Source: Actinokineospora enzanensis DSM 44649
GTDB taxonomy: Bacteria > Actinomycetota > Actinomycetes > Mycobacteriales > Pseudonocardiaceae
Reading direction: 5' to 3'
Assembly (NCBI RefSeq): GCF_000374445.1
Contig: NZ_KB894427.1
Coordinates: 62,001 to 126,000 of the forward strand
DNA length: 64,000 bases
Made by a program: the position numbers and the translations under genes. Of this stretch, positions 17,855 to 49,106 are shown piece by piece. Each line of letters starts with the position of its first letter. Positions within the stretch are counted from its first letter, which is position 1. The notes under the pieces were generated by a model, which saw only the letters and a program-made list of their open reading frames with translations, was not told where the DNA came from and did not search any database.

Positions 17855-20269
17855 TCAGCAGGCCCCGAGGTCCTGCCACACGCCCCACTGGCCGCTCTTG
17901 TCGGGCTGGTCGCCCTGCGTCCACCATTTGGCCTTGTACTGGTGTCCGTTGTAGGACACCGTCTGGCCACCGGTGTAGACCTTCGCCGCGTCCCAGGCCG
18001 CCGCGGCACACGTCGGCGGCTTGGTGGTGGTGGTGGTGGTCGTCGTGGTCGTGCTCGACGTCGGCGGGGTCGTGGTGGTCGTCGACGTCGGCGGGGTGCC
18101 GGTCGTCGTGGTGGTCGTGGTCGTCGTCGTGGACGTCGGCGGGGTGCCGCCGGTGCCGTGCAGGTACTCCTGCGCCGCCGTGTAGGACTTGCCGCCGAAG
18201 GTGATCGTGATGTTCGACGGGGTCGTGATCGGCAGGTAGTAGGACAGCTGCACCTGGGCGCTCTGGCCGGGGGCCAGGGTCTGGTACGAGGGCAGCTTCA
18301 GGGAGAACCGGTGCAGGTCGCCCTTGAGGCCGCCGACGTTGTTGCCCGTGTGCCCGGTGGAGACCACCGACAGACTCCAGCCGGACTGCTGCGCGATGGT
18401 CGGCGGGGCCGAGGTGCCGTAGTCGAACTGGATCTCGGTGCCGCCGGGCAGCGTCTGGGTGGAGCTGTTGGTGATCGTCGCCTTCGGCGTGATCGGGTAG
18501 TTGGCGTCGCCGACCGGGAAGCCGCCGAGGCTGAGCTTCACGTCCAGCGTGTCCTTCGGCATGGAGATCTTCGCCTTGGCCGCGCCGTAGGGGGTCGCCG
18601 CCTTGAACTTGTCGTAGAGCAGGCTGGTCAGCGTGTTGCCCATGCCCCATTGCTGCTTGGCGGTGTCATAGGCGTAGTCGCCTGCCAGCTCCCAGATCAT
18701 GACGCCGCCGATGCCGCGGTCCATGACGTACTGGGCCTTGGTGCCGATCGACTGCTCGTTCTCCGTGGAGAGGAACACCTTCTTCTGCGCGTTCCACAGC
18801 CACGGGGCGACCAGGGTCGAGTCGTACTGCGGCGTGTAGGTGCCGGTGACGCGGTCGGTCGGGTCGTTGGCCGGGTCGAGCCCGTAGGACTCGGCGTAGT
18901 CGCCGATCTTGCCGTCCTGCAGGTTCTTCGCGTGCCACAACGGGTTCGAGCCGGACGCGACCTCGTCACCCGCGGCACCCAGGTCGTGCCAGAGGTTGTC
19001 GGCGCCGATCGCGCCGTTGCCGCAGGGGACCTTGGAGCCGACCGTGCCACCCGTGCCCGCCGGACACTTCGTCTGGTCCGGCAGGGCCGCTTGACCCCAC
19101 AGACCGTTCGACGCGCCGCCGGAGACGTCCTTCCAACCGCGGGTGTAGTACGGGATGCCGATGTTGATCCGGCCCGCACCCATCGCGCCGCGGAAGTAGT
19201 GGTACGCCCAGTCGGTGTTCAGATAGCCGAGCTGGCCGTACTGCTGGGTGGTGTAGTACTGCCAGAAGTTCAGCTCCGCGTCCTTGCCGTCGTCGTAGAG
19301 GGCGGCGTTCGGACCGACGAAGTTGTTCCAGGCACCGTGCAGGTCGTACGTCATCATGTTGACGTAGTCCAGGTACTGGGTGATCTGGTAGGTCTCCATG
19401 CCGCGGAGCATGTAGCCGGACGACGGCGCGGCCACGGTGAGCATGTAGTACTTGTTGTCCGCGGTGCTGGCGGCGTCCAGCTTCTCGCGCAGCGTCTTCA
19501 TCAGGGTGACGAAGTTGGCCATCAGCTTGGCGCGCCGCGGGTTGGAGAAGTTGAAGTCGTCCGGGTTGCCGGAGTTGTTCATCGACGTGGCGTACTCGTA
19601 GTCGATGTCCACGCCGTTGAACCCGTACTTGCGGATGAAGTCGACCGCCGAGTCGGCGAAGGTGTTGATCTTCGCCGGGGTGTCGGTCATGGTGTAGAAG
19701 CCGCCGTCGGCCACCCGCTTGCCGTCCGCGCCGAGGTAGCCGCCGGTCTCCGCCCAGCCGCCGACCGAGATCAGCGTCTTGACGTTCGGGTGCAGCTTCT
19801 TGAACTTGTTGAGCAGGTTGAACTCGCCCTTGTACGGGAAGGACGGGTCCATCTCCGCGCCGGGGACGCCCGGCCACTCCTCGCCGATCGAGGGGTTGTC
19901 CGGGGTCTGGTCGCCGACCGAGACCTTGCCCTGGCCGTCGAGGTGCGCGAACGCGTAGTTGATGTGGGTGATCTTGTCCCACGGGATGTTGTTGGCCAGG
20001 TACGCGGGGGTGCCGTTCTTCCCGTCGCGCCAGCTGGTGAAGTAGCCGATGACGCGGCGCGGATGGTCCGCGCCCATCTTCTCGCGGCCGTCGGTGTCGT
20101 AGGCGAGGCAGTAGGGAACCGCGAGGTTCCCGGTGGTGGCCAAGCCGTCCGGTCGACATTCGGACTGGTCGGCGGCCTGGGCGACGGTACTGCCGGTGGC
20201 GGCCACCGCCACGGTGATACCGGAGAGCAGAGCCAGCAAGAACAGCAGGGGAAGGCTCTTTCTGACCAC
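17855..20269 (-). CDS. Secreted GH18 chitinase with chitin-binding domain
   Basis: 804 residues from GTG at 20269, with GGAGGTGAAGC upstream. Signal peptide to about residue 33; GH18 barrel from about 70 to 560, with the SVGGW strand (residues 168-172) and the catalytic strand NGVDIDYE, where Glu225 is the acid and Asp221/Asp223 assist. The first Asp of the usual DxxDxDxE is Asn218. A beta-sandwich domain follows (about 585-715), then Thr-rich PPTST linkers and a CBM5/12 chitin-binding module (AWDAAKVYTGGQTVSYNGHQ, WWTQGDQP) at the end. It cleaves extracellular chitin. Two DasR-type sites lie upstream. Confidence 0.95.
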   Translation of the reverse strand: MVRKSLPLLFLLALLSGITVAVAATGSTVAQAADQSECRPDGLATTGNLAVPYCLAYDTDGREKMGADHPRRVIGYFTSWRDGKNGTPAYLANNIPWDKITHINYAFAHLDGQGKVSVGDQTPDNPSIGEEWPGVPGAEMDPSFPYKGEFNLLNKFKKLHPNVKTLISVGGWAETGGYLGADGKRVADGGFYTMTDTPAKINTFADSAVDFIRKYGFNGVDIDYEYATSMNNSGNPDDFNFSNPRRAKLMANFVTLMKTLREKLDAASTADNKYYMLTVAAPSSGYMLRGMETYQITQYLDYVNMMTYDLHGAWNNFVGPNAALYDDGKDAELNFWQYYTTQQYGQLGYLNTDWAYHYFRGAMGAGRINIGIPYYTRGWKDVSGGASNGLWGQAALPDQTKCPAGTGGTVGSKVPCGNGAIGADNLWHDLGAAGDEVASGSNPLWHAKNLQDGKIGDYAESYGLDPANDPTDRVTGTYTPQYDSTLVAPWLWNAQKKVFLSTENEQSIGTKAQYVMDRGIGGVMIWELAGDYAYDTAKQQWGMGNTLTSLLYDKFKAATPYGAAKAKISMPKDTLDVKLSLGGFPVGDANYPITPKATITNSSTQTLPGGTEIQFDYGTSAPPTIAQQSGWSLSVVSTGHTGNNVGGLKGDLHRFSLKLPSYQTLAPGQSAQVQLSYYLPITTPSNITITFGGKSYTAAQEYLHGTGGTPPTSTTTTTTTTTTGTPPTSTTTTTPPTSSTTTTTTTTTTKPPTCAAAAWDAAKVYTGGQTVSYNGHQYKAKWWTQGDQPDKSGQWGVWQDLGAC
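18020..18150 (-). repeat. Low-complexity Thr/Pro linker coding repeat in chitinase
   Basis: Runs of ACC/ACG codons interrupted by GTPPTS or TPPTS units encode two to three Thr-rich linkers between the beta-sandwich domain and the CBM5/12 module. Such tracts can expand or contract by slippage and are typical O-glycosylated or flexible spacers. Confidence 0.8.
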
Positions 20270-20323
20270 GCTTCACCTCCTGGGGACACTTGGTGCAGGG
20301 TTGCAGGGATTCTGGTGATCGTA

Positions 20324-20339
20324 ATTGGTCTAAACCAGC
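20324..20339. promoter_or_regulatory. DasR-type site 1 upstream of GH18 chitinase
   Basis: ATTGGTCTAAACCAGC agrees at 12 of 16 positions with the DasR responsive element ACTGGTCTAGACCACT. It lies 55 bp upstream of the chitinase start. DasR, a GntR-family regulator, controls chitin and N-acetylglucosamine genes in streptomycetes and relatives. Confidence 0.7.
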
Positions 20340-20346
20340 CAACTCA

Positions 20347-20362
20347 ACCGGTCTAGACCAAT
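20347..20362. promoter_or_regulatory. DasR-type site 2 upstream of GH18 chitinase
   Basis: ACCGGTCTAGACCAAT agrees at 14 of 16 positions with the DasR element; the core GGTCTAGACC is a perfect palindrome. Its centre is 23 bp from that of site 1. From here to 20684 there is only the presumed promoter of the carboxypeptidase; no gene is visible. Confidence 0.8.
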
Positions 20363-24769: not shown

Positions 24770-26059
24770 GTGGGCAAGCACGGTCTCGTCGTCCGCATTT
24801 CCGCCGCCGCTTCCGCCCTGGTGCTGGGCGTGAGCGGGTGCGGCTCGGAATCGGCGAACCCCGATTCCCCGAGCCCGCCCGCGTTGGCCGGTGTCGGGCC
24901 GATCACGCTGGTCACCGGGAAAGACTTCTCCGGAAACCTGCAACACCAACTCGACGAATGGAACGGGCAGCATCCCGACCAGCCGGTGCAGCTCATCGAA
25001 CTGCCGGAGAACGCCGACGCGCAGCGGCAGCAGATGGTGCAGAACGCGCAGACCCGGTCCGACGCCTACACGGTGCTCAACCTGGACGTGGTCTGGACCG
25101 CCGAGTTCGCCGCCAACCAGTGGGTGGTGCAGCTGCCGGAGGCCGAGTTCCCGCTGGGCAGCCTGGTGCCCGCGACGGTGGACACGGCCAGGTACTTCAA
25201 GCGGCTCTACGCCGTCCCGATGAACTCCGACGGCGGCCTGCTCTACTACCGCAAGGACCTGCTGGACGCGGCGGGCCTGACCGCGCCGAAGACCTGGTCG
25301 GAGATGTCCGCCGACTGCGCGAAGGTGCTGCCCGCCAACCCCGGCGTGTCCTGCTACGCCGGGCAGTTCGAGAAGTACGAGGGCCTGACGGTGAACTTCG
25401 CCGAGGCGGTGCACTCGGCGGGCGGCAGCGTGGTCGGCGAGGACGGCAAGCCGACGGTGAACACCGAGGCGGCCCGGCGCGGCCTGTCGTTCCTGGTGGA
25501 CGGGGTGCGGACCGGGGAGATCCCGCAGAAGGCGCGCACCTTCAAGGAGGAGGAGAGCAGGCGCGCGTTCCAGGCCGGTGAGCTGCTGTTCCAGCGCCAG
25601 TGGCCATACCAGTACGCCAAGGCCCAGGCGACCGACGGCTCGTCCGCGGTGGCCGGGAAGTTCGGCGTGGCCACGCTGCCGGGGCTGAGCGGGCCCGGGG
25701 TGTCGTCGCTGGGCGGTCACAACCTGGCGGTCAGCGCGTTCGCCAAGAACAAGCGGTCCGGCCTGGAGCTGATCAAGTTCCTGACCGGCGAGCAGCAGCA
25801 GCGGGCCAACCTGGAGAAGACCTCGCAGGCCCCATCCTGGGCCTCGCTCTACGACGAGCCCGCGCTGGTGGCCAGGTTCCCGTACCTGACCGAGCTCAAG
25901 AAGAGCATCCTGGGCGCCAAGCGGCGGCCCGCGGTGGTCAAGTACCAGGAGGTCTCGGTGGCCATCCAGGAGGCCGCCTACGGGGCGATGAGCGGCACCA
26001 CCGGCGTGGACCAGGCGCTGGCGACGCTGCAGGGCAAGCTCGACGCGCTCACCCGATGA
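24770..26059 (+). CDS. Sugar ABC transporter substrate-binding lipoprotein
   Basis: 429 residues from GTG at 24770, with GGGAGG just upstream. Lipobox GVSGC gives lipid-anchored Cys24. The rest is a family 1 extracellular solute-binding protein (YAVPMNSDGGLLYYRKDLLD, TWSEMSADCAKV, NLAVSAFAKNKRSGLELIKF), as in maltose/trehalose binding proteins such as LpqY. Its ATG-coupled neighbours are two permeases. The sugar is not certain; a trehalose- or maltose-type alpha-glucoside is the closest guess. Confidence 0.88.
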   Translation: MGKHGLVVRISAAASALVLGVSGCGSESANPDSPSPPALAGVGPITLVTGKDFSGNLQHQLDEWNGQHPDQPVQLIELPENADAQRQQMVQNAQTRSDAYTVLNLDVVWTAEFAANQWVVQLPEAEFPLGSLVPATVDTARYFKRLYAVPMNSDGGLLYYRKDLLDAAGLTAPKTWSEMSADCAKVLPANPGVSCYAGQFEKYEGLTVNFAEAVHSAGGSVVGEDGKPTVNTEAARRGLSFLVDGVRTGEIPQKARTFKEEESRRAFQAGELLFQRQWPYQYAKAQATDGSSAVAGKFGVATLPGLSGPGVSSLGGHNLAVSAFAKNKRSGLELIKFLTGEQQQRANLEKTSQAPSWASLYDEPALVARFPYLTELKKSILGAKRRPAVVKYQEVSVAIQEAAYGAMSGTTGVDQALATLQGKLDALTR

Positions 26060-26955
26060 CCCGGCGCGGGTCCGGGCGGCTCGCGGCGGGCCTGGTCTCC
26101 CCCACCCTGGTGGTGCTGGCGCTGGTGGTGGCCTACCCGGTGATCTCGGCGGTGCGGCTGGCGTTCTACCGGCGCGAGGACGGGATCGACCCGGAGACCG
26201 GGTTGATCCGCGCGGGCGAGCGGTTCGTCGGCCTGGACAACTTCGCCGAGATGTTCGGCGGCGACTCGACGGGCCGGTTCCTCGACGCGTTGGCCAACAC
26301 CACCACGTTCACCCTCGCCGGGGTGTCGCTGGAGGTCGTGCTCGGCGTGCTGATGGCGTTGGTGATGCACCGGGCGTTCCGCGGCCGGGCGCTGGTGCGG
26401 GCCAGCATCCTGGTGCCCTGGGCGGTGCCCACGGCCATCGCGGGCCTGTTGTGGCGGTGGGTGTTCCAGGCCGACGGGGTGGCCAACGACCTGCTGCCCG
26501 GCCCGCCGGTGCTGTGGACCACGGACGGGTTCCAGGCGTGGGTGGCGGTGGTGGTGGCCGACACGTGGAAGACCGCGCCGTTCATCGGGCTGCTGGTGCT
26601 GGCCGGGCTGCAGGTGATCCCGAACGAGATCCACGAGGCGGCCCGGCTGGACGGCGCCACCGGGTGGCGGGCGTTCTTCTCGATCACGCTGCCGCTGGTG
26701 AAGCCGACGCTGCTGGTGGCCGTGCTGTTCCGGGTGCTGGACACGCTGCGCATGTTCGACCTGCCCTACACGCTGATCGGGCCGGGCAAGGAGGCGACCG
26801 ACACGGTGACGGTGCTGGCGTTCGAGGAGGCGGTCACCTTCGGCCGGTTCGGCCCGGCCTCGGCGTACGCGGTGACGCTGTTCGCGTACGTGGCGGTGGT
26901 GGCGTTCGTGTTCGTGCGGCTGCTGGGCGCGGACGTGCTGGGGAGCAGGCGATGA
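26056..26955 (+). CDS. Sugar ABC transporter permease 1 (MalF/SugA type)
   Basis: 299 residues, starting in an ATGA overlap. About six membrane helices; the EAA loop that contacts the ATPase is EAARLDGATGWRAFFSITLP. The proximal region (LAFYRREDGIDPETG, ERFVGLDNFAEMF) is typical of SugA-type subunits. It forms the channel heterodimer with the next gene. Confidence 0.9.
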   Translation: MTRRGSGRLAAGLVSPTLVVLALVVAYPVISAVRLAFYRREDGIDPETGLIRAGERFVGLDNFAEMFGGDSTGRFLDALANTTTFTLAGVSLEVVLGVLMALVMHRAFRGRALVRASILVPWAVPTAIAGLLWRWVFQADGVANDLLPGPPVLWTTDGFQAWVAVVVADTWKTAPFIGLLVLAGLQVIPNEIHEAARLDGATGWRAFFSITLPLVKPTLLVAVLFRVLDTLRMFDLPYTLIGPGKEATDTVTVLAFEEAVTFGRFGPASAYAVTLFAYVAVVAFVFVRLLGADVLGSRR

Positions 26956-27761
26956 GGGCGCGCTACCTGGGCATCGCGGCGATCGTGGTGTACTGCCTGG
27001 CGCCGTTCTACTGGATGCTGGTGTCCAGCCTGCGCCGCACCAACGACATCTTCGACTCCTCGCCGTGGCCCAGCCCGCTGTCGTTCGAGTCCTACACGGC
27101 CGCTTTCGCGCCCGGCAACGGTTTCCTGCGGGCGCTGCTCAACAGCTTCATCGTCGCGGGCGTGACCACGGCGCTGGTGCTGCTGTTCGCGACGCTGGCC
27201 GCCTACGCGCTGGCCCGGGTGGAGTTCCGGTTCAAGAACGCGGTGCTCGCGCTGATCATCGCCACCAGCATGTTCCCCGGCATCTCGCTGCTGGTGCCGC
27301 TACTGCGGCTGTTCTCCGACATCGGCTGGATCAACACCTACCAGGCGATGATCGTGCCGAACATGGGCGCGGTGCTCCCGCTGGCGGTGTGGAACCTGAC
27401 CGCGTTCTTCCGCCAGATGCCGCACGAGCTGGAGGAGGCCGCGCAGATCGACGGCTGCACGCAGGGCCAGGCGTTCATCCGGGTCATCCTGCCGGTCGCC
27501 GCGCCCGGGGTGTTCACCACCGCGATCATCACCTTCATCGCCGCCTGGAACGAGTTCATCATCGCGCTGTCGGTGGTCAACCGGCAGGAGCTGAAGACCG
27601 CGCCGGTGATCACCAGCCAGTTCACCGGAACCAGCCGGTTCGACTCGCCGTTCGGCACCCAGATGGCGGCGGGCGTGATCGTGACGATCCCGCTGGTGAT
27701 CCTGGTACTGCTGTTCCAACGCCGGATCGTGGCGGGGCTGACGGCGGGCGGGGTGAAATAG
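26952..27761 (+). CDS. Sugar ABC transporter permease 2 (MalG/SugB type)
   Basis: 269 residues, ATGA overlap with permease 1. EAA loop ELEEAAQIDGCTQGQAFIRV; six membrane helices. The operon ends here without an ATP-binding gene, so energising by a shared multiple-sugar ATPase (MsiK-like) elsewhere is expected, as in streptomycetes. A sequence GTCCACTGTGTAC lies between its stop and the convergent gene. Confidence 0.9.
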   Translation: MRARYLGIAAIVVYCLAPFYWMLVSSLRRTNDIFDSSPWPSPLSFESYTAAFAPGNGFLRALLNSFIVAGVTTALVLLFATLAAYALARVEFRFKNAVLALIIATSMFPGISLLVPLLRLFSDIGWINTYQAMIVPNMGAVLPLAVWNLTAFFRQMPHELEEAAQIDGCTQGQAFIRVILPVAAPGVFTTAIITFIAAWNEFIIALSVVNRQELKTAPVITSQFTGTSRFDSPFGTQMAAGVIVTIPLVILVLLFQRRIVAGLTAGGVK

Positions 27762-28348: not shown

Positions 28349-29317
28349 TCACGCGGCGAACTCGGCCGTGGCGCGGTCGTGGGCCGACTGGTCGGCGCCC
28401 AGCTGGTCCAGACCCAGCCGGGCGGCGCCGACGATCGGGGGCGTCCGGGCGACCAGCAGGCGGGCGTGCGGGGCGCGGGCGGCATAGCCCGCCTCGACCG
28501 CGGACATCAACCGGGCGGGACCGCCGGTGAGCACGCCGCCGCCCAGTACGACATCGGTGGGCGTGTCCAGCAGGTCCAACCGGCGGATCACCGACAGGCC
28601 GAGCAGACACACCTCCTCGGCCATCCGGTCCACAAGGGACACCGCGACCGGGTCGGTGGAAGCGAACAGCGGATGGGTCAGCTCGGTGAGCCGGTGCCGG
28701 GGGATCTCACCACAGTGGATCGCGATGGCGACCTCGGTCGCACTGGCCGCGTCGAAGTGCGCGCGCACCGCGTCGACCAGCTCGGTCGGCTCGCCGCGGC
28801 CGTCCTCGGCGCGCACGGCGTGCCAGAGGACCAGCTTGCCCAGGTGTCCCCCGCCGCCCCAGTCGCCGGTCAGCGAGCCGAGGGACGGGAAGCGGGCGAC
28901 GCGGCCGTCCGGGCCGACGCCCGCCGCGTTGACGCCCGCGCCGCACACGACGGCCACGCCCCACTCGCGCGTGGTGCCCGCGCGCAGCAGGGCGAAGGTG
29001 TCGTTGCCGATCTCGACCGTGGTGCCGATCCGCCTGCGCAGGAACTCCTCGCGCAGCGCGACCTCCTCCTCGGGCAGGTCCGCGCCCGCGAGGTAGGCGG
29101 CGACGTGGTCGGCGAACGGCGCCTCGGTCGACAGCAGTTCGGCGGCGGTGCGGACCACCACGTCGACGGCGGCGGCCACGCCCACCGAGTGCGGTTCGAA
29201 CCCGGGACCGCGCCCGCGCGCGAGCACGGTCCCGTCCGCGCGCAGCAGCGCGATGTCCGTCTTGCTGTTGCCGCCGTCGACGGCGAGCAGCGTCCTGCCC
29301 GCCGGGTGCACGGTCAC
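28349..29317 (-). CDS. BadF/BadG-family sugar kinase (CsnK-like glucosamine kinase)
   Basis: 322 residues from GTG at 29317, overlapping the upstream stop. The actin-like ATPase fold is clear: phosphate 1 motif LLAVDGGNSKTDIAL, phosphate 2 VVCGAGVNAAG, DWGGGGHLGK and adenosine motif VVLGGGVLTGG. In Streptomyces the csnK gene of the csnR-K operon occupies the same last position and encodes a glucosamine kinase of this family. The gene order here supports the same role: phosphorylating glucosamine released from imported oligomers. Confidence 0.82.
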   Translation of the reverse strand: MTVHPAGRTLLAVDGGNSKTDIALLRADGTVLARGRGPGFEPHSVGVAAAVDVVVRTAAELLSTEAPFADHVAAYLAGADLPEEEVALREEFLRRRIGTTVEIGNDTFALLRAGTTREWGVAVVCGAGVNAAGVGPDGRVARFPSLGSLTGDWGGGGHLGKLVLWHAVRAEDGRGEPTELVDAVRAHFDAASATEVAIAIHCGEIPRHRLTELTHPLFASTDPVAVSLVDRMAEEVCLLGLSVIRRLDLLDTPTDVVLGGGVLTGGPARLMSAVEAGYAARAPHARLLVARTPPIVGAARLGLDQLGADQSAHDRATAEFAA

Positions 29318-30576
29318 TTGACCGGTGCCCAGGGCAGGAACTCGTGGTTGACCTCGATCAGCCGCGCGGCCAGCTTCTCCGCCACCGACACCTGGCCGAT
29401 CAGCGGGTGCGCCAGCAGCGCCTCGGTGACCAGGTCGGCCCCACCGGTGATGGCGGCGCGCACGGCCAGCGTCTCGTAGGCGGACACGTGCCCGATCAGC
29501 CCGGCCATCAGCGGCGACACCGGGGCCACCGGCCAGGTCTGCGCGCCCGCGGCGGTGACCGTGGCGGGCACCTCGACGACCGCGTTGTCCGGCAGGAACG
29601 GCAGCGTGCCGTTGTTGCGGACGTTGACCACGTGCACGTCGCCGCCCTCGCCGAACAGCGACGCCAGCAGCGCCACCGCCGCCTCCGAGTAGAACGCCCC
29701 GCCGCGGCTGCCCAGCAGGTCCGGCTTGGTGTCCACGGCCGGGTCGGCGTAGAGCTCCAGCAGCTTGCGCTCCACGTCGGCGACCGCGCTGGCCCTGGTC
29801 GGCGACACCCGCTGCTCCTCGACCACGGCGTCGTGCTCGTAGAAGTAGCGCAGGTAGTAGGAGGGCACCACGCCCAGCTTGCGCAGCACGTGCTCGGGCA
29901 GGCCGACCTGCTTGGCCACCGCCGCGCCGTGCTCGTCGAGCAGCCGGGGCAGCACGTCCTCGCCGCGCACGTAGACCGCGCGCTCCCAGGTGAGGTGGTT
30001 GAGCCCGACGTGGTCGAGCGCCACCCTGGCCGGGTCGACGTCCAGCAGCGCGGCGAACCGCCGCTGGAAGCCGATGGCCACGTTGCACAACCCGATCGCC
30101 CGGTGCCCGGCGTCCAGCAGGGCCCGGGTGACGATGCCGACCGGGTTGGTGAAGTCCACGATCCAGGCCCGGGGAGCGACCGCGGCGATCCGGGCGGCCA
30201 CGTCGAGCACCACCGGCACGGTGCGCAGGGCCATGGCCAGCCCGCCCGCCCCGGTGGTCTCCTGCCCGACGCAGCCGCACTCCAGCGGCACCGTCTCGTC
30301 CTGGTGGCGCATGGCCTGGCCGCCGACGCGGAGCTGGACCAGCACCGCGTCCGCGCCCGCCACGCCCAGCTCCAGCTCGGTGCTGGTGCGCAGGCGGGCG
30401 GGGTGTCCGGCGCGCGCGAGGATGCGCCCGGACACCCCGGCCACCAGCTCCAGCCGGTGTTCGTCGGTGTCGATCAGCACCAGCTCGCTGACCGGCAGCT
30501 CGGCGTGCAGCCGCGCGATGCCGTCGACCAGCTCCGGGGTGTAGGTCGAGCCGCCGCCGACGACCGCGAGTTTCAC
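29314..30576 (-). CDS. GH4 glycosidase (CsnH-like)
   Basis: 420 residues from GTG at 30576. Family 4 glycosidases use NAD+ and a metal through a redox-elimination mechanism. Visible are the NAD motif AVVGGGSTYTPELVDG, the metal ligands Cys164 (LCNVAIGF) and His194 (GLNHLTW), and the GAFYSEAAVALL region. The usual length is 420-450. GTGA overlaps couple it to the permease upstream and the kinase downstream. By synteny with csnH it would split chito-oligosaccharides or a related glucosaminide in the cytoplasm; the alternative is a phospho-beta-glucosidase. Confidence 0.85.
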   Translation of the reverse strand: MKLAVVGGGSTYTPELVDGIARLHAELPVSELVLIDTDEHRLELVAGVSGRILARAGHPARLRTSTELELGVAGADAVLVQLRVGGQAMRHQDETVPLECGCVGQETTGAGGLAMALRTVPVVLDVAARIAAVAPRAWIVDFTNPVGIVTRALLDAGHRAIGLCNVAIGFQRRFAALLDVDPARVALDHVGLNHLTWERAVYVRGEDVLPRLLDEHGAAVAKQVGLPEHVLRKLGVVPSYYLRYFYEHDAVVEEQRVSPTRASAVADVERKLLELYADPAVDTKPDLLGSRGGAFYSEAAVALLASLFGEGGDVHVVNVRNNGTLPFLPDNAVVEVPATVTAAGAQTWPVAPVSPLMAGLIGHVSAYETLAVRAAITGGADLVTEALLAHPLIGQVSVAEKLAARLIEVNHEFLPWAPVK

Positions 30577-31484
30577 TTGATGGCTCCCGAGGTGAGTCCG
30601 GCCTGGATCTGACGCTGGAAGGCCAGGTAGACCAACAGCGCCGGGATGATCGTCATGCTCAACGCGGCGAACAGGCCGGGCCAGTCGGCCTGGTAGCCCG
30701 CGTTCGTCGAGATGTTGGCGATGCCCTGGGTGAGCACCCACTTGTCCGGCACCGACCCGGACAGCAGCACGATCGGCAGCAGGTACTGGTTCCACTGGCC
30801 GATCACGTTGAAGATCGTGATGCTGATCAGGCCCGGCTTGGCCATCGGCACCATGATCTGGAAGAACGTCCTGGTGTGCGAGGCGCCGTCGATCATGGCA
30901 GCCTCCGCGATGGACACCGGCAGGCTGCGGAAGAACGCGGACAGGAAGAAGACCGTGAACGGCAGCGAGTACGCGATGTACACCAGGATGAGCCCGAGGT
31001 GGGTGTCGAGCAGGCCCAGGTTGCGCACGACGAAGAACAGCGGCACCAGCGCCAGGAACACCGGGAACACCATGCCGGAGACGAACAGGGTGTAGATGAG
31101 CCGGTTGCCCCGGAACCGGAACCGCGCCAGCACGTACGCGGCCATGGAGCCGAGCAGCATCGTGCCCGCGGTGGAGCAGACCACCACGAGGACGCTGTTC
31201 CACAGGTACTGGCCGATGTTGGCCTTCTCCCACGCGCGACCCCACGAGTCGAACTTTATCGACGTGGGCAAGCTCAGCGGGTCGGTGAAGATCTGCGTGT
31301 TCGTCTTGAACGAGGCCAGGAACGTCCACAGGATCGGCGCGATCACGGTGATCGCCCAGAGCACCAGCGCCGCGTGCGAGAGACCGCCCAGGACGGGGTT
31401 GCTCCGGCGCTCCGCCCGCCCCGGGGCGGCCCGCGTCGGCTGCGCGGGCTCGGCGGGGCGTTCGGCTGTCATGTTGGCGGTCAT
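30573..31484 (-). CDS. Chito-oligosaccharide ABC permease (CsnG-like)
   Basis: 303 residues from ATG at 31484 in an ATGA overlap. A polar N-terminal extension of about 35 residues is followed by six membrane helices and the EAA loop SIAEAAMIDGASHTRTFFQI. Member of the MalG-type permeases; pairs with the gene upstream. Confidence 0.88.
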   Translation of the reverse strand: MTANMTAERPAEPAQPTRAAPGRAERRSNPVLGGLSHAALVLWAITVIAPILWTFLASFKTNTQIFTDPLSLPTSIKFDSWGRAWEKANIGQYLWNSVLVVVCSTAGTMLLGSMAAYVLARFRFRGNRLIYTLFVSGMVFPVFLALVPLFFVVRNLGLLDTHLGLILVYIAYSLPFTVFFLSAFFRSLPVSIAEAAMIDGASHTRTFFQIMVPMAKPGLISITIFNVIGQWNQYLLPIVLLSGSVPDKWVLTQGIANISTNAGYQADWPGLFAALSMTIIPALLVYLAFQRQIQAGLTSGAIK

Positions 31485-32383
31485 GCGTACTCGATCCGTT
31501 CCCGCCGGGTCACCCGCAGGGTGAGCACGGCGAACAGCAGGCTCAGGACGAACAGCGCGACACCCATCGCCGAGGCGACGCCGTACTTGGAGAACCGGAA
31601 GGTGCGCCAGATCTCCAGCGGCAGCACGGTGGTCGAGCCGTCCGGGCCGCCCTGGTCCACCGACAGCGTGGACACGATGGCGAACCCGTCGAAGGCCAGG
31701 ATGCCCAGGTAGACCCAGGCGACCTGGACGGTGTCCCAGAGCAGCGGCAGGGTGACCCGGAAGAACATGCCCATCCGGGTGCAGCCGTCCAGCTCGGCGG
31801 CCTCGATGACCTCCTTGGGGATGGAGGACATGCCCGCGGCGAAGAGCACCACGTAGAAGCCGACCTGCTGCCAGATCAGCACCGCGATCAGCGCCCACAG
31901 CGCCAGGCCGGGTTGGGTGAGCCAGCCGACCGGGGCGATGCCGAAGATGTCCAGGATGCCGTTGAGCACGCCGCCCTTGTCCGGGCGGTACACCGCCTGG
32001 AACAGCACGCCGATCACCGCGACCGCGAGGACCTGCGGGAAGAAGAACACGGCCTGGTAGAAGCGTGAGCCCTTCACGCCTCTCGTGCCCGCCCCCATGT
32101 TCAGCAGGAAGGCGAAGAACAGGGCGATGACCAGCGTCACCGCGGGCAGCGAGAGCAGCAGCAGCAGGTGGTGGCCCACCGCGGCCTTGAACGCGTCGTT
32201 GTGGAACAGGTCCTCGAAGTTCTTGAACCCGACCCACTGCGGGGGCTTCGAGAAGCCCTTCCAGTCCGTGAACGCGAGGTAGAACGCCTGGAAGTAGGGC
32301 CCGATGACGAACACCAGGTACAGGATGACCGGCAGCGCCAGGAAGCCGATGACGAACCTGGCGCCGCCGCGGGGCATCCTCAC
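31481..32383 (-). CDS. Chito-oligosaccharide ABC permease (CsnF-like)
   Basis: 300 residues from GTG at 32383, overlapping the stop of the binding protein. MalF-type permease with WKGFSKPPQWVGFKNFEDLF in the first periplasmic loop and EAA loop VIEAAELDGCTRMGMFFRVT. All five genes of the operon overlap by 4 bp, so subunit stoichiometry is set by coupled translation. Confidence 0.88.
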   Translation of the reverse strand: MRMPRGGARFVIGFLALPVILYLVFVIGPYFQAFYLAFTDWKGFSKPPQWVGFKNFEDLFHNDAFKAAVGHHLLLLLSLPAVTLVIALFFAFLLNMGAGTRGVKGSRFYQAVFFFPQVLAVAVIGVLFQAVYRPDKGGVLNGILDIFGIAPVGWLTQPGLALWALIAVLIWQQVGFYVVLFAAGMSSIPKEVIEAAELDGCTRMGMFFRVTLPLLWDTVQVAWVYLGILAFDGFAIVSTLSVDQGGPDGSTTVLPLEIWRTFRFSKYGVASAMGVALFVLSLLFAVLTLRVTRRERIEYA

Positions 32384-33807
32384 GAGGTGCGGTTCTGCTT
32401 GGTCACGGACGAGTCGTTGCGCACGGCGTCGGCCTTGGCCTGCACGTCCTTGCAGAACTGCTCGGCGTTGATGCGACCGAACATCAGCGCGTTGGTCTTG
32501 GAGCGCAGCTCGGTCTCGAACTCCTTGTACCAGTCCTCGAACAGGTTGTAGGTGATGATGTTGCTACCGGCCTTGTTCAGGGCGTCGTTGGTGCTCTTGT
32601 TGCCCGGCGAGAGCGGCAGGCCGTCGGCCGCGCCCTTGACCACGGTGATGTTGCCGGTCTTCTCGGTGAAGCCGCGCGCGCCGTCCTTGGACAGCATCAT
32701 CCGCAGGTACTCCAGGCCACCGGCGGTGTTCTTCGCCTTGGACGGCACGATGTAGGCCTCGCCTGCCGCGGCGCGCAGGGCGCCGAAGGGCAGCTTGTCC
32801 GAGGAGGACACGCTCGGGGTGGCGGTGAGCGCGTACTGGAAGGTCGCCGGGGTCTGCTCCTTCTGCTCGTTCTCCAGCCAGGAGCCGGACGGGTAGAAGC
32901 CGACGTGGCCCTGGTTCTGCGAGGTCTGCACCTCGGTGTGGGTCAGGCCCTCGAAGCTGGGGTCGAGGTACTTCTTGCCGATCGCGGCCCACTTCTCGGC
33001 CGACTGGCGGACCGGGTCGGAGGTCCAGACGCCGTCCTTGAGGTTGTCCATGTCGATGAGCACCTGGTTGCCCGCGATCTTCGCGGCGGTGATGGCGATC
33101 ATCCAGTACATGTAGTACGAGGCGTTCTTGCCCGCGTAGGCGAACGGCTGCAGGCCGGCGGCCTTGATCTTGCCGAGGAGGGCGTCGAACTCCTCGAAGG
33201 TGGTGGCCGGGGTCCAGTTGTTCTTGGCGAACAGCGCCGAGTCGTACCAGAGGCCGTACGCGGTGTAGATGTACTTCATCTGGAACGGCTTGCCCGCGAT
33301 CAGGCCCGCCTCGATGGTGCCCGGCATCAGCGTGTCGCGGACCTTGCCGGAGCCGCCGAGCGCCGGGGCGTCGAACAGCTGGGAGAGGTCGAGCAGCTGG
33401 TTCTCGGACTGCAGGGCGCCCGCGTCCATCAGGTCGCTGCCGGAGTTGGCGATCACGTCCGGCAGGTCGCCGCCCGCGAAGCGGGGCTGCTGGGTCTGCG
33501 CGATCTGCTGGGTCGGGACGTGCTTGATGGTGGCCTGCGGGAAGGCCTTCTTGTACATCGGCTCGTGCACGTCGGTCGCGTAGGCGTCGCCGAGACCGCC
33601 CTTGAAGATGACGACCTCAAGCGGGGCGTCGGCCTTCACACCGAACGGGTTCTCCGCGGAGACCGGGCCCGCGGGCGCGGTGGTGGACGGGGTGCCGGAG
33701 TCCGAGGACCCGAAGGCACAGGCCGACAGCGGACCGGCCGCGAGCGCGGCCATCCCCAGCCCCTTGAGCATCGTTCGGCGACTGGGATTCTGCGGTAGCG
33801 CGGACAT
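32380..33807 (-). CDS. Chito-oligosaccharide-binding lipoprotein (CsnE/NgcE-like)
   Basis: 475 residues from ATG at 33807, with AAGGAG upstream. Twin-arginine-type leader (NPSRRTMLKGLGMAALAAG) ending in lipobox LSAC (Cys30), so a Tat-exported lipoprotein is likely. The body is a family 1 solute-binding protein (IANSGSDLMDAGALQSENQ, SYYMYWMIAITAAKIAG, VGFYPSGSWLENEQKEQTP), matching NgcE/CsnE-type aminosugar binding proteins. It leads the operon. A DasR-type site lies 95 bp upstream. No csnR-type ROK repressor gene is present in front, unlike in Streptomyces. Confidence 0.85.
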   Translation of the reverse strand: MSALPQNPSRRTMLKGLGMAALAAGPLSACAFGSSDSGTPSTTAPAGPVSAENPFGVKADAPLEVVIFKGGLGDAYATDVHEPMYKKAFPQATIKHVPTQQIAQTQQPRFAGGDLPDVIANSGSDLMDAGALQSENQLLDLSQLFDAPALGGSGKVRDTLMPGTIEAGLIAGKPFQMKYIYTAYGLWYDSALFAKNNWTPATTFEEFDALLGKIKAAGLQPFAYAGKNASYYMYWMIAITAAKIAGNQVLIDMDNLKDGVWTSDPVRQSAEKWAAIGKKYLDPSFEGLTHTEVQTSQNQGHVGFYPSGSWLENEQKEQTPATFQYALTATPSVSSSDKLPFGALRAAAGEAYIVPSKAKNTAGGLEYLRMMLSKDGARGFTEKTGNITVVKGAADGLPLSPGNKSTNDALNKAGSNIITYNLFEDWYKEFETELRSKTNALMFGRINAEQFCKDVQAKADAVRNDSSVTKQNRTS

Positions 33808-33901
33808 GTTCGGGGCTCCTTCGACCGTCACGCGACCGGTTCGCGAGGCCCGCCCACTATCGGGGCGGCCCCCCTGGCCGGGCAATCGGACAGATGGGTG
33901 A

Positions 33902-33917
33902 TTTGGTCTAGACCATA
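33902..33917. promoter_or_regulatory. DasR-type site upstream of csn-like operon
   Basis: TTTGGTCTAGACCATA contains a perfect 12-bp palindrome TGGTCTAGACCA and agrees at 12 of 16 positions with the DasR element. It sits between the operon and the long non-coding region. Confidence 0.75.
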
Positions 33918-34786
33918 CTCCGGGGATATCCGCTTGGCCAGCACTGATACCGAACTGGATCATGCCAGATTCCAACGCACCACCGCGTGCCGGATCGGGT
34001 GATTTTGCCACTTGACGGTGTCGTCGGAAGACACCAGAGTATGCCGTTTCGGTCGCGGTTACCCGTCGGTCGGATCGGTTCCGGTTTGTCGGATCCTTCT
34101 CGGTGGACACGCTCCCGGAACGGTCGCGCGCGGCTCCGGCGGGGCGCCGCGGTCCAATCGCAACAGAGCTGTCACCGAGGCGTTGTCAACCGTGCGGGAC
34201 CCGCCCGACTTCGTTCCGTAGCCAGGGAAAGCGGCTCGTCGGCGGAGAGCGCTCCGGGACCCCCGTCCGCGCCGCTCCCCCGCCTTCTCCAACGATCCGA
34301 CCCCCGATGGTGTTCCGATGTGGAGAAGTAACCGCGGCCGACCCGAAGCGGTCGACGGGCGCCCGGAACGCCATTCCCGGCAGCCCGCGGCGGATTCCGG
34401 CCGATTAATGTCGGACATCAGATGTCCTCACCCGAACCGGTGGCCGCCCCCGGGCAAGATCCACCGGGGATCGGGATTGTCGACGAGCGGGCGCGGAATG
34501 GCACACAAGGGCATGGGGCGGCCGTGGGAAAGCCGCGGACCGCCATTGTTGCCGGGCAAGATCCACGATCCCGCCGCATTGTCCCGACCGCGCGGATTGG
34601 GCGCCGAATCCGCGGGCAACCGCCCCGACCCGGCCGCACCGGCGCGCGGCGGCCGGTATGCACCGTAGGTATAGCAGACCGCCCGCGGCGGGCACCACGT
34701 GGACACGGGCAACCCTGTTGCCCGATCGAACACCCCGCCCGGGTCAGGACGGGCACGGTTTCGCCTGGCAGGCCGTGTGGCACGGT
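33918..34786. other. Long intergenic region with a 15-bp direct repeat
   Basis: About 870 bases separate the csn-like operon and the fluoride-channel genes. CCGGGCAAGATCCAC occurs at 34450-34464 and again at 34552-34566, 102 bp apart, flanked by G/C-rich dyads. Open frames on both strands here have atypical composition and no ribosome binding sites. I see no gene and no match to the fluoride riboswitch consensus. Confidence 0.5.
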
Positions 34787-39320: not shown

Positions 39321-39337
39321 CTCGCGAGAGGGTGACC

Positions 39338-40186
39338 GTGGAATACGTGTTCAGCAGCGCGCTGATCGGGCTCCGGGAGGGCCTGGAGGCGACGCTGGTG
39401 GTCACCATCCTGCTCGCCTACCTGGTCAAGACCGGCCGCCGGGAGTCCCTCCGCTGGGTCTGGGCCGGGGTGGCCGCCGCGGTGGTGCTGTCCGTCGCAG
39501 TCGGCGCGCTGATCACCTACACCAGCGCGACGCTGGACTGGAAGGCGCAGGAGACCTTCGGCGGCGCGATGTCGCTGGTCGCGGTCGCGTTCGTGACCGG
39601 CATGATCTTCTGGATGCGCGGCACCGCCCGCAAGATCAGCGGCGAGCTGCGCGGCAAGCTGTCCGACGCGATCGCCATCGGCCCGCTCGCCGTGGTCGTG
39701 GTCGCCTTCCTGTCGGTCGGCCGCGAGGGCCTGGAGACCGCCGTCTTCTTCTACGCGACCACCGAGTCCGCGCACGAGAACCTCGGCCCGCTGGTCGGCT
39801 TCCTGATCGGCATCGTGCTGGCGGTGGCGCTGGGCTGGGCCATGTACCGGGGCGCGGTGAAGATCAACCTGACCCGGTTCTTCACCGTCACCGGCGTGCT
39901 GCTCGTCTTCATCGCCGCGGGCGTGCTCGGCTACGGGCTGCACGACCTGCAGGAGGGCGGCGTGCTGCCCGGCCTGGACGCGCTGGCCTTCGACCTGTCC
40001 GGCCCGATGCCCGAGGACTCCTGGTACGGCGCCCTGCTCAAGGGGATCTTCAACTACTCCGCGCAGACCACCAAGCTGCAGGGCTACGCCTGGCTCGGCT
40101 ACGTGGTGGTCGTGCTCACGCTCTTCCTCTGGCCCGCGCGCAAGCCCGCGGCCAGGCCCGCCACCGTCCAAGGAGTACAGCAGTGA
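39338..40186 (+). CDS. efeU: Iron permease EfeU
   Basis: 282 residues from GTG at 39338 (GAGAGG 6 nt upstream; GTG at 39332 is also possible). Seven membrane helices with two iron-binding REGLE motifs (GLREGLEATLVV, GREGLETAVFFY), as in the Ftr1/EfeU family. It imports ferric iron after EfeB oxidation. Coupled to efeO by a 4-bp overlap. Confidence 0.93.
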   Translation: MEYVFSSALIGLREGLEATLVVTILLAYLVKTGRRESLRWVWAGVAAAVVLSVAVGALITYTSATLDWKAQETFGGAMSLVAVAFVTGMIFWMRGTARKISGELRGKLSDAIAIGPLAVVVVAFLSVGREGLETAVFFYATTESAHENLGPLVGFLIGIVLAVALGWAMYRGAVKINLTRFFTVTGVLLVFIAAGVLGYGLHDLQEGGVLPGLDALAFDLSGPMPEDSWYGALLKGIFNYSAQTTKLQGYAWLGYVVVVLTLFLWPARKPAARPATVQGVQQ

Positions 40187-41334
40187 CCGCAGTGACCGCC
40201 CGCGCGTGCCTCGCGGGACTGGCGACCCTCTCGCTGGCCGCCCTCGCCGCCTGCGGCAGCGGCGACAAGGCCGACACCGCCCAGGCCGCCGCGGGCGGAC
40301 CCATCGCGGTCGAGGCCAAGGACGACAGCTGCGGCGTGGGCCGCGCCGAGGCGGACGCGGGCAAGATCACCTTCGAGGTGAGCAACAAGGGCACCCGGGT
40401 CACCGAGTTCTACCTGTACGCCGAGGGCGACCGGATCATGGGCGAGGTCGAGAACATCACCCCCGGCCTGACCCGAAAGCTGATCGTCGAGGTCCCCGAC
40501 GGCGGCAAGTACCAGACCTCCTGCCGCCCCGGCATGACCGGCGACGGCATCCGCGCGGACTTCACCGTCAAGGGCAGCGCCACCCGGCAGGTCGACGCCG
40601 ACACCAGGCTGGCCGAGGCCACCGCGGGCTACCAGCGCTACGTCAACGACCAGGTCGAGCCGTTGCAGACCAAGACCGGCGAGTTCGTGGCCGCGGTCAA
40701 GGCGGGCAAGGTCGACGAGGCCAAGAAGCTGTACCCGGTCGCGCGCACCTACTGGGAGCGGATCGAGCCGGTCGCGGAGAGCTTCGGCGACCTCGACCCG
40801 CGGGTCGACGCGCGCGAGGCGGACCTGGAGCCCGGCCAGGAGTTCAGCGGCTTCCACCGGCTGGAGAAGGACCTGTGGGTCACCGGCCTGCAGGCGGACA
40901 GCGGCAAGATCGCCGACCAGCTGCAGACCGACGTCACCGAGATCGTCACCCGCGCCAAGACCGTGCAGCTGACCCCGTTGCAGCTGGCCAACGGCGCCAA
41001 GGAGCTGCTCGACGAGGTGGCCACCGGCAAGATCACCGGCGAGGAGGACACCTTCTCGCACACCGACCTGTGGGACTTCCAGGCCAACGTGGAGGGCTCC
41101 CAGGCCGCCGTCGCCGCGCTGCGGCCGGTCGTCCAGGAGCGCGACGCCGCCCTGGCCAAGACCATCGACGACCGCTTCGCCGCGGTGACCCGCCTGCTGG
41201 ACGAGCAGCGCACCGCCGACGGCTTCAAGCTCTACACCGACCTGTCCCAGGACCAGGTCAAGGCCTTCGCCGAGGCCGTCGACGCGCTGGGCGAGCCGAT
41301 CAGCAAGGTGGCCGAGGTGGTGGCCCAGAAGTGA
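40183..41334 (+). CDS. efeO: Iron-binding lipoprotein EfeO
   Basis: 383 residues from GTG at 40183. Lipobox LAAC (Cys24). An N-terminal cupredoxin-like domain (ITFEVSNKGTRVTEFYLYAE, with Cys-containing DDSCGVG and TSCRPGM) precedes a C-terminal M75 peptidase/imelysin-like domain with the HRLEKDLW iron site. It hands iron to EfeU at the membrane face. Confidence 0.93.
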   Translation: MTAVTARACLAGLATLSLAALAACGSGDKADTAQAAAGGPIAVEAKDDSCGVGRAEADAGKITFEVSNKGTRVTEFYLYAEGDRIMGEVENITPGLTRKLIVEVPDGGKYQTSCRPGMTGDGIRADFTVKGSATRQVDADTRLAEATAGYQRYVNDQVEPLQTKTGEFVAAVKAGKVDEAKKLYPVARTYWERIEPVAESFGDLDPRVDAREADLEPGQEFSGFHRLEKDLWVTGLQADSGKIADQLQTDVTEIVTRAKTVQLTPLQLANGAKELLDEVATGKITGEEDTFSHTDLWDFQANVEGSQAAVAALRPVVQERDAALAKTIDDRFAAVTRLLDEQRTADGFKLYTDLSQDQVKAFAEAVDALGEPISKVAEVVAQK

Positions 41335-42614: not shown

Positions 42615-42615
42615 A

Positions 42616-44804: not shown

Positions 44805-44874
44805 GTACGTCCGGGTGATTCGACCGCGCGCGGCCGGTCGGTGCGAGACCGACCGGAATCGGCGGCCGAATGGC

Positions 44875-47038: not shown

Positions 47039-47041
47039 CCA

Positions 47042-47091
47042 CAAGCGGACGGGCCTCCGCGCGTCATGGCGGCGGCCCGTCCTGCGCTTGG
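47042..47091. terminator. Terminator between pcaL-like and TenA-like genes
   Basis: CAAGCGGACGGGCC pairs with GGCCCGTCCTGCGCTTG, with a small internal bulge, between convergent genes. Confidence 0.6.
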
Positions 47092-47104
47092 AACGCGGTC
47101 CCGG

Positions 47105-47764
47105 TCAGACGGTGAGATCCGCCAGCGTGTTCCAGAACATCAGCTCGTATCCCTGCAGGAGCCGTCCGTACCCGATCGACGTCTTCGGCTTCCACCCGTC
47201 ATCCAAGGCCTGCTGCAACGCCACCACGTACAACTCCTCCAGCTCCGGCACCGGCGCGGCGAAGAAGTCGAAGAAGGCCGTCCCCTTCTCGTCGAACCCG
47301 TAGTGCTCCCGCAGCCCGGCGGAGATCGTCGCGCAATACCCGCCCCACGCCGCGAAGTTCGCCAGGATGGCCAACAACGCGTCCCGCGGACTCCCGTTCA
47401 ACGCCAACCAGGCCAGGTACGCCGGATACGCCTGGCACCCGGGCTGCGGCTGGTAGTTCAGAACGTCGTCCTCGCTCAGCCCGCAGGCCGCCGCGAAGTC
47501 CTTCAGGTTCACCAGGGAGATCCCCTCCCCCTGGGCCAGGCTGCTGAACACCTCCCGCGCCGCCGGGTCCACCGCCTGCGCGGCCAACGTGAGGAAGGTT
47601 CGCCAGTCGCTGTTGATGATGCGGTGTTGCTCGGCCGCCAAGGCACCCAGGACCGACAGTGGCGCCGCGCCCGAGGCGACCAACGGAACGAAACGGTTGT
47701 CGTGTTCGCCGGGGAGCAGTTCGCGCTGCACCTTCTCCAGCAGCTCCTTGGCCGATCGGGTCAT
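47105..47764 (-). CDS. TenA/PqqC-like (haem-oxygenase fold) protein
   Basis: 219 residues from ATG at 47764. All-helical, with the pattern of the TenA/Thi-4/PqqC family (LAAEQHRIINSDWRTFLTLA, LANFAAWGGYCATISAGL, LEELYVVALQQALDDGWKP). No thiamine genes are adjacent, and the typical TenA active-site Cys is not obvious, so thiaminase activity is uncertain; an iron-dependent oxygenase-like role is possible. It diverges from the GH19 chitinase with a DasR-type site in between. Confidence 0.7.
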   Translation of the reverse strand: MTRSAKELLEKVQRELLPGEHDNRFVPLVASGAAPLSVLGALAAEQHRIINSDWRTFLTLAAQAVDPAAREVFSSLAQGEGISLVNLKDFAAACGLSEDDVLNYQPQPGCQAYPAYLAWLALNGSPRDALLAILANFAAWGGYCATISAGLREHYGFDEKGTAFFDFFAAPVPELEELYVVALQQALDDGWKPKTSIGYGRLLQGYELMFWNTLADLTV

Positions 47765-47837
47765 GTCGGGGCCTCCTGGGTCGTCCGCGTCGACCCGGTC
47801 AGACTAGATCATCTAGAGATCTCCGGACAGCCGGGCG

Positions 47838-47853
47838 AGTGGTCTAGACCTTG
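47838..47853. promoter_or_regulatory. DasR-type site upstream of GH19 chitinase
   Basis: AGTGGTCTAGACCTTG has the perfect core GGTCTAGACC (47841-47850) and a good left half of the DasR element. It is 123 bp before the chitinase start and 74 bp before the TenA-like gene. Confidence 0.7.
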
Positions 47854-47975
47854 ACGGGAACTGGCCTGATCGGCTTAGGTGAATTTCGGTCCAATCCTGC
47901 CTGTCCCCGGCGGGAATGGGCCATGACCCTGCGGCCGGTCTGGTCCCGGACCGGCACCCTGTGAGGAGTGATCGC

Positions 47976-49106
47976 GTGTCGAGGAACCGAATCGTCGCGG
48001 TGGTGGCCGCGGTGGCGGCGGCGGGCGGGCTGGCGTTGATCCTGCCGTCCGTGTCCGCGCAGGCGGCGGCCGACTGTGCCACGCCGTGGAGCAGCAGTAC
48101 CGTCTACACCGGTGGAAAGTCCGCGTCCTACACCGGACACAACTGGACCGCCAAGTGGTGGACCCAGGGCGAGACGCCCGGACAGGCACAGGTCTGGACC
48201 GACTCGGGCGCCTGCGGTGGCGGCGGTGGCACCCCGCCGACGACCACCACGACCAAGCCGACCACGCAGCCGCCCGGCACCTGCAGCTACCCGGACTGGG
48301 TGCAGGGCCGCGACTACAAGACCGGCGACATCGTCCGTTACGTCGACAACAACTACTACATCGCCGAGCACGACAACCCTGGCTACAGCCCGGTCGTGAG
48401 CACCTGGTACTGGGACCCCTACACCAGCTGCGGCACTCCCCCGTCGACGACGACCACCCCGCCCACCTCGCAACCGCCCAACACCAGCGGTTTCGTCGTG
48501 TCCGAGGCGCAGTTCAACCAGATGTTCCCCAGCCGGAACACCTTCTACACCTACAAGGGCCTCACCGACGCGCTGGCCGCCTACCCCGGGTTCGCCAACA
48601 CCGGCACGGAGACCACGAAGCGCCAGGAGGCCGCGGCGTTCCTGGCGAACGTCAACCACGAGACCGGCGGGTTGGTCTACATCAAGGAGACCAACACCGC
48701 CAACTACCCGCACTACTGCGACGCCAGCCAGTCCTACGGCTGCCCGGCGGGCCAGGCCGCGTACTACGGGCGCGGTCCGATCCAGCTGAGCTGGAACTTC
48801 AACTACAAGGCCGCCGGTGACGCGCTCGGCATCGACCTGCTGCGCAACCCGTTCCTGGTCGAGCAGGACCCGGCCGTGGCCTGGAAGACCGCACTCTGGT
48901 ACTGGAACACCCAGAAGGGCCCCGGCACGATGACCCCGCACGAGGCCATCGTCAACGGCCGCGGCTTCGGCGAGACCATCCGCAGCATCAACGGCGCGCT
49001 GGAGTGCAACGGCGGCAACCCCGCCCAGGTGCAGAGCCGGATCAACGCCTACCAGAAGTTCACCCAGCTGCTCGGCGTCGTCCCCGGGGACAACCTGAGC
49101 TGCTGA
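47976..49106 (+). CDS. Secreted GH19 chitinase with two CBM5/12 modules
   Basis: 376 residues from GTG at 47976, with GAGGAG 7 nt upstream. Signal peptide to about residue 32. Two chitin-binding modules follow (residues 34-80 with NWTAKWWTQGETPG; 103-152 with GDIVRYVDNNYYIAEHDNPG), separated by Thr/Pro linkers. The GH19 domain runs from about 172 to the end, with catalytic Glu229 (NHETGG) and Glu238 (YIKETN) and the YYGRGPIQLSWNFNY signature. An inverting endochitinase that complements the retaining GH18 enzyme at 18-20 kb. Confidence 0.95.
   Translation: MSRNRIVAVVAAVAAAGGLALILPSVSAQAAADCATPWSSSTVYTGGKSASYTGHNWTAKWWTQGETPGQAQVWTDSGACGGGGGTPPTTTTTKPTTQPPGTCSYPDWVQGRDYKTGDIVRYVDNNYYIAEHDNPGYSPVVSTWYWDPYTSCGTPPSTTTTPPTSQPPNTSGFVVSEAQFNQMFPSRNTFYTYKGLTDALAAYPGFANTGTETTKRQEAAAFLANVNHETGGLVYIKETNTANYPHYCDASQSYGCPAGQAAYYGRGPIQLSWNFNYKAAGDALGIDLLRNPFLVEQDPAVAWKTALWYWNTQKGPGTMTPHEAIVNGRGFGETIRSINGALECNGGNPAQVQSRINAYQKFTQLLGVVPGDNLSC

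Follow-up and report, generated by a model that had tools for sequence, protein, structure and literature searches.

The window examined here is a stretch of 64,000 nucleotides from the soil actinobacterium Actinokineospora enzanensis DSM 44649 (contig NZ_KB894427.1, positions 62,001 to 126,000), and it carries two chitinase genes, one of family GH18 (chiC) and one of family GH19, with a five-gene sugar uptake operon, ngcEFG-csnH-csnK, located between them. Four short palindromes lie in front of these genes, and they are predicted operators (DasR-responsive elements, dre) of the N-acetylglucosamine (GlcNAc)-responsive repressor DasR, which is also linked to antibiotic production. Genes were called by our own script, which is other than a standard gene finder, and the features concerned are listed below.

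17855..20269, minus strand: GH18 chitinase (GH18, ChiC domain and CBM5/12 by Pfam)
20326..20337, plus strand: dre 1, TGGTCTAAACCA, with the GH18 start 62 bp downstream
20349..20360, plus strand: dre 2, CGGTCTAGACCA, with the GH18 start 85 bp downstream
28349..29317, minus strand: csnK-like BadF-family sugar kinase (PF01869)
29314..30576, minus strand: csnH-like GH4 glycosidase (Pfam GH4, in the longer open reading frame)
30573..31484, minus strand: permease in the ngcG position (BPD_transp_1, in the longer open reading frame; named from position)
31481..32377, minus strand: permease in the ngcF position (BPD_transp_1; named from position)
32380..33807, minus strand: ngcE, GlcNAc/diacetylchitobiose-binding protein (TIGR03851 equivalog, 611.8 bits, cut-off 399.65)
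33904..33915, plus strand: dre 3, perfect TGGTCTAGACCA, with the ngcE start about 100 bp downstream
47840..47851, plus strand: dre 4, TGGTCTAGACCT, between a TENA-like gene and the GH19 gene
47976..49106, plus strand: GH19 chitinase with CBM5/12 (Pfam; start chosen by the script, reading frame open from 47916)

An earlier note on this DNA had placed four sites at these positions, and all of them were found there as intergenic, near-perfect palindromes. The core that it gave, GGTCTAGACC, is present exactly at 20350, 33905 and 47841, whereas the fourth site, at 20327, has the one-mismatch form GGTCTAAACC. Its remark that no others were noticed elsewhere in the window held for the 12-mer TGGTCTAGACCA, which gave no match with up to one mismatch beyond these four and no additional intergenic match at two mismatches. 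With the 10-mer and up to one mismatch, nine matches were observed in the window against a shuffle mean of 1.52 (none of 100 shuffles reached nine), and the other five, all with one mismatch (17972, 25090, 28405, 39424, and 48191), are inside script-called genes. The published 16-bp consensus, as given in the available text of PMC6097792, is A(G/C)TGGTCTAGACCA(G/C)T, and by hand count the sites, in coordinate order, fit it at 13, 14, 12, and 13 of 16 positions. The tandem arrangement of dre 1 and dre 2 before chiC, with its 23-bp period, is kept in all five relatives of the genus whose chiC upstream region was fetched. Each site was said to lie directly upstream of an aminosugar gene or operon; this is the case for GH18, GH19 and the transporter operon, but dre 4 lies between divergently transcribed genes, with the TENA-like gene 81 bp away and the GH19 start 131 bp away. 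No GH19 gene was found in the 13–20 kb flanks from six relatives. The stretch 47800–47825, on the TENA-like gene's side of dre 4, is rich in A+T and partly palindromic, with TCTAGA.

The middle operon, as judged from its sequence, is a hybrid of an NgcE-type chitobiose transporter with csnH-like GH4 and csnK-like kinase genes, because its GH4 and kinase match csnH and csnK while the transporter has only about 23–31% identity to csnEFG, and this only where BLAST aligns them. The GH4 protein is 55–74% identical to the GH4 proteins of csn-type clusters beyond the genus and 89% to that of Actinokineospora diospyrosa, and its nearest solved structures are the 6-phospho-beta-glucosidases 5c3m and 1s6y. 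The kinase is 39–61% identical to GH4-adjoining kinases in relatives beyond the genus and has a weak likeness to GlcNAc and N-acetylmuramic acid kinases, and NgcE has, by eye, a twin-arginine start. The description of the operon as csn-like was therefore rejected as worded: it applies to the GH4 and kinase genes (two of five), but the binding protein is of the NgcE type and not the CsnE type and the permeases are unlike csnFG. Its first gene is ngcE, where csnREFGHK has csnR, encoding a ROK repressor. A search for chitosanases of family GH46, the one family covered, found none in the genome, which would fit an operon whose present role is in the use of chitin rather than chitosan. Adjoining the operon is another sugar ATP-binding cassette (ABC) transporter (24770–27761, plus strand), whose binding protein is near the operon in six of six relatives examined and which has no intergenic dre with up to two mismatches.

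The CsnR box, AGGAAANTTTCCT, was not found with up to four mismatches at 33800–34200, and in the genome as a whole its one-mismatch matches (three) equal those of the reversed control (three). The nine ROK-family matches of this genome have at most 34% identity and 87 bits to the csnR products of two other genomes of the genus, G339 and G162, vs. 51% and 307–343 bits between those two. A csnR orthologue acting in trans was rejected for this assembly on account of these distant ROK proteins and the control-level box count. The assembly is 99% complete, and hence a csnR gene in a gap is possible.

The forms of this operon were compared in 24 GH4 loci with at least 55% identity from 150 genomes of the order, together with named loci found on genome contigs (the best 80 of 592), which lean to close relatives and Streptomyces. 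Of the 115 GH4 loci compared, ten are cut near the operon start; locus L129, on the same contig as L320, was omitted. Among the 105 uncut loci, csnR is present in the operon in 70 and a CsnR box with up to two mismatches in 58, the corresponding numbers for the uncut named loci from the best 80 of 592 being 51/73 and 47/73, with a dre in 0/73. A promoter dre with up to one mismatch was observed at 12 of the 115 loci, against 0.02 expected from shuffles, and locus L118 (G017) is a thirteenth.

Within the genus, the GH4 gene of the operon is present in 13 of 16 genomes, and the regulatory regions differ in form. In eight genomes (G000, G132, G192, G334, G336, G337, G338, and G340) the order ngcEFG-GH4-kinase is accompanied by an exact dre, and they have neither csnR in the operon nor a CsnR box with up to two mismatches. 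In G339, csnR precedes the same genes; the CsnR box is exact there, and a dre is lacking even at up to three mismatches. The operon of G162 has csnR in front, an exact CsnR box and also two one-mismatch dre. G235 retains only the GH4 and kinase genes and lacks ngcEFG, dre and the second DasR gene described below. The site dre 3 seems to have taken over an uptake operon that, in relatives, answers to CsnR.

Further dre were observed at csn-type clusters of three more lineages (G333 with G341, G144, and G017), and DasR may have captured such clusters several times. G333 and G341 have the canonical csnREFGHK order with an exact dre, while csnR clusters preceded by a one-mismatch dre occur in G144, of the same family (with a two-mismatch CsnR box), and in G017, of the same order (with a one-mismatch CsnR box). 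In G333 and G341 no CsnR box was seen and a palindrome, TTAGTTAG...CTAACTAA, lies near the csnR start; a similar palindrome, without dre, is present in the second csn cluster of G162. In one csnR subtype (the csnR promoters of L325, at 3200–3230, L326, and L327) TTAGTTAG...CTAACTAA takes the place of the CsnR box, and this palindrome is possibly a second CsnR operator type. Outside the genus, the order ngcEFG-GH4 is found at locus L153, from a metagenome-assembled genome of the Streptosporangiaceae, where the only CsnR box has two mismatches; in Nonomuraea antri (L161) the order is CsnR box-GH4-kinase-ngcEFG-csnR.

In the GH4 tree, which was based on 58 rows picked from the loci and built by a quick search with support from the Shimodaira-Hasegawa-like approximate likelihood ratio test (SH-aLRT) and no bootstrap, G339 branched first, followed by G162, then G235 and then the eight dre-only genomes (SH-aLRT 97, 95, 98, and 94), and the neighbors of the genus group were Streptosporangiaceae (support 81–87). 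This order of forms in the tree agrees with control having passed from CsnR to DasR. In alignment, the dre of the eight lies within a long stretch that is conserved among their promoters, and the promoters of G339 and G162 have 18 bp in common, including the CsnR box. We are inclined, by a modest degree, to the view that within one genus the operon switched its master regulator, from CsnR only, through both (in one species), to DasR alone (in eight species).

The genome (8.12 Mb in 87 contigs) was scanned with the 12-bp core and up to one mismatch, giving 41 matches vs. 17 for the reversed pattern. Of these, 33 are intergenic (27 promoters by our own count) and eight lie within called genes, where the intergenic background in the stretches taken is 15.8% (P about 1e-19). 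Chance palindromes were rejected as the origin of the sites in view of the excess over controls in window and genome and this intergenic enrichment. Sites of equal score are not mostly found by unrelated genes, as 22 of the 33 intergenic dre adjoin chitin or aminosugar genes, viz. GH18, GH19, GH20, the AA10 lytic polysaccharide monooxygenase, NagA, a NagB-II-like SIS gene, the ngcE operon, a binding protein adjoining the second DasR gene, and the DasR genes; this count includes L044 and L056, which combine a carbohydrate-binding domain with a weak or by-eye GH18 part, and L046:7429, which is 766 bp upstream of its gene. The remaining 11 are by other or unnamed genes (L026, L031, L039, L042, L045, two at L047, L048, L053, and two at L054), including CutC, RraA-like, SodC-like, SMP-30-like, and MauE-like genes, and the neighbors at L026, L031, and L048 gave no clear family on search.

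Several of these other sites may be described individually. At L054 (6580–6691), two TGGTCTGGACCA sites 100 bp apart are ahead of a CutC-family gene (6799–7494, plus strand), whose link to chitin is not obvious. Exact dre lie ahead of an SMP-30/PQQ-like protein of 314 amino acids, under the Pfam cut-offs (L042:7004), and of a MauE/DUF417-like protein of 158 amino acids (L039:7243), while a one-mismatch dre at L045:6945 is ahead of a protein weakly resembling Cu/Zn superoxide dismutase. With regard to the suggestion that the sites unite 30 kb of the window, nothing makes this region one unit; contig C25 has four dre promoters in 61 kb, a marginal cluster by a Poisson estimate (about 0.03–0.04) that was chosen post hoc. 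Within the window, genes for an FTR1 iron permease and an imelysin-type protein (39332–41334, plus strand) likely form an iron uptake system.

Eight regulators with a UTRA domain (HutC-type) were identified in the genome by Pfam, and two of them are homologues of DasR: DasR1 (contig C8), the dasR orthologue, with 320 bits to Streptomyces coelicolor DasR (PDB 9i0v), and DasR2 (C45), with 265 bits. These homologues, together with the presence of dre sites across the genome at genes typical of the regulon, support the common DasR-like control proposed in the earlier note. A one-mismatch dre lies upstream of each DasR gene and is common to a divergent gene, which in one case is NagB-II-like (208 bits, with a model cut-off of 430) and in the other encodes a sugar-binding protein, labelled DasA-like by position alone. 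A counterpart of DasR1 is present in 16/16 genomes of the genus and in 48 of 60 genomes of the family; in this 60-genome sample, a second copy at about 66% identity was found in this genome only and one at 48–50% in five others. DasR2 was detected in all nine genomes of the genus with a dre on an ngcEFG-type operon and in none of the other seven. Exact dre number 2–8 per genome with DasR2 and 0–2 without it (reversed control 0–3; Mann-Whitney p 0.001, uncorrected for kinship). In the rpoB tree a single branch (84/95) separates the nine DasR2 genomes from the seven without, and therefore the association of DasR2 with dre may correspond to a single event. On a slight balance, we favor the view that the switch of operon regulator goes along with the presence of DasR2 and a higher number of exact dre per genome.

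Taken together, we regard it as probable that DasR, through these dre sites, controls the GH18 gene, the GH19 gene, and the uptake operon, and that the operon passed from CsnR to DasR. Control by DasR would then be common to the two chitinase genes, the five-gene operon, and about two dozen other promoters. DasR would bind these sites and repress chiC, the GH19 gene, and ngcEFG-csnHK; NgcEFG would import the chitin disaccharide (chitobiose), which the BadF kinase and GH4 enzyme would phosphorylate and split; and the products, GlcNAc-6-phosphate (GlcNAc-6P) and glucosamine-6-phosphate (GlcN-6P), would release DasR, forming a positive feedback loop. In S. coelicolor, according to the available text of PMC6167110, GlcNAc-6P and GlcN-6P release DasR from the ngcE dre. 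As to the origin of this control, the ancestral operon was presumably controlled by CsnR; dre sites would have joined csnR and the CsnR box, and the latter two would then have been lost, leaving DasR alone.

Other explanations of the sites and of the operon's history were also considered. It is very unlikely that a different GntR/HutC regulator with a similar operator (e.g., PhnF-like) is the main protein binding the sites; although the genome has the eight UTRA-domain regulators noted above, and the solved relatives of both DasR copies include PhnF proteins, the targets, like those of DasR, are mostly chitin and GlcNAc genes, a dre is present at both DasR promoters, and the next UTRA protein is just 37% identical to DasR1. 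A division of the sites between the two DasR copies, which would yield two overlapping regulons rather than one, is possible but in our opinion doubtful. The copies are 65% identical, the DasR2 rows have in common Q to K after VR and GKG to GSG changes in the recognition helix and wing (alignment with row L360 left out), and the higher number of exact dre in genomes with DasR2 also accords with such a division. Against this, the residues of the NagR type that contact bases (Arg38, Arg48, and Gly69 in NagR, as stated in the available text of PMC4333415) are identical in both copies, which have the same Arg, Arg, and Gly at matching spacing (R46, R56, and G77).

The operon may also never have been under CsnR control in this line, if ngcEFG brought its own dre and acquired csnHK. 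The ngcE gene of S. coelicolor has a weaker dre that is bound by DasR and matches at 12/16 positions (PMC6167110, available text), and the dre-only promoters are without clear homology to the dual one, but G339 and G162 have an exact CsnR box, with csnR ahead of the same genes in the same order, and their GH4 proteins branch outside the dre-only group. Moreover, none of the 18 ngcE loci fetched from beyond the genus (part of the matches) has an intergenic dre with up to one mismatch, although one has two two-mismatch matches. We consider this course of events unlikely.

Several observations nevertheless weigh against the hand-over from CsnR to DasR as we have described it, or against its importance for expression. 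The rpoB tree groups G235 with genomes lacking DasR2 (84/95), unlike its place in the GH4 tree, and therefore operon loss or transfer must be added; this tree has no outgroup and hence gives no direction. Shared letters between the dual and dre-only promoters were tried as proof of their homology and failed: with the dre excluded, the longest shared stretch beat shuffles for G132 (0.3%) and marginally for the window (5%) and was at chance level for the other six of the eight, so that the dre-only promoter may have arisen anew. Lastly, chitinase transcription in S. coelicolor was little changed in a dasR deletant, according to the available portion of PMC6097792, and a dre is therefore no guarantee of a strong effect.

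Finding a DasR regulon in one more actinomycete is no surprise and belongs to known biology; what is new is the middle operon. In common with the DasR regulon of S. coelicolor are the dre core, the DasR orthologue, the dre at dasR promoters and the chitinase, AA10, NagA, NagB-like, and uptake gene targets, whereas this genome differs in having two DasR genes and a dre before an operon that includes csnH- and csnK-type genes. The csnREFGHK chitosan operon with its CsnR box is described for S. coelicolor and S. lividans in the available text of PMC6097792; the middle operon resembles it in that the ABC-transporter genes are followed by a GH4 gene and then a saccharide-kinase gene, which close the operon, and differs in its dre, its NgcE-type transporter, and the lack of csnR and CsnR box. 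With the ngcEFG transporter it shares a binding protein that passes the NgcE equivalog model and an upstream dre, as in S. coelicolor ngcE, but the GH4 and kinase genes are joined to it and the dre is perfect in the 12-bp core. The CsnR regulon of Streptosporangium roseum likewise places both branches, chitin and chitosan, under a single regulator (PMC6097792, as far as its text is available); in that species CsnR boxes are reported at chitinase genes, and a DasR was not identified, whereas here the dre is on csn-type genes and csnR is gone. According to the accessible text of a 2018 review, chitosan genes carry no dre. A dre on csn-type genes is not described in the accessible text of the literature on CsnR together with DasR (the 2018 review, PMC6520443), subscription papers being mostly outside the search. 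Among the matches listed on Actinokineospora with chitinase, and among those listed on NgcE, GH4, and chitosan (PMC11430731 included), nothing on such a dre was seen either.

The present finding runs against the published view, which keeps the chitin circuit (DasR) separate from the chitosan circuit (CsnR). One operon occurs in a single genus in three regulatory forms, with the CsnR box only, with both kinds of sites, and with dre only, and the change of regulator coincides with a duplication of DasR. The hand-over of an operon between regulators is usually inferred from its end states, whereas in this genus a dual-site form has survived and makes the proposed hand-over testable.

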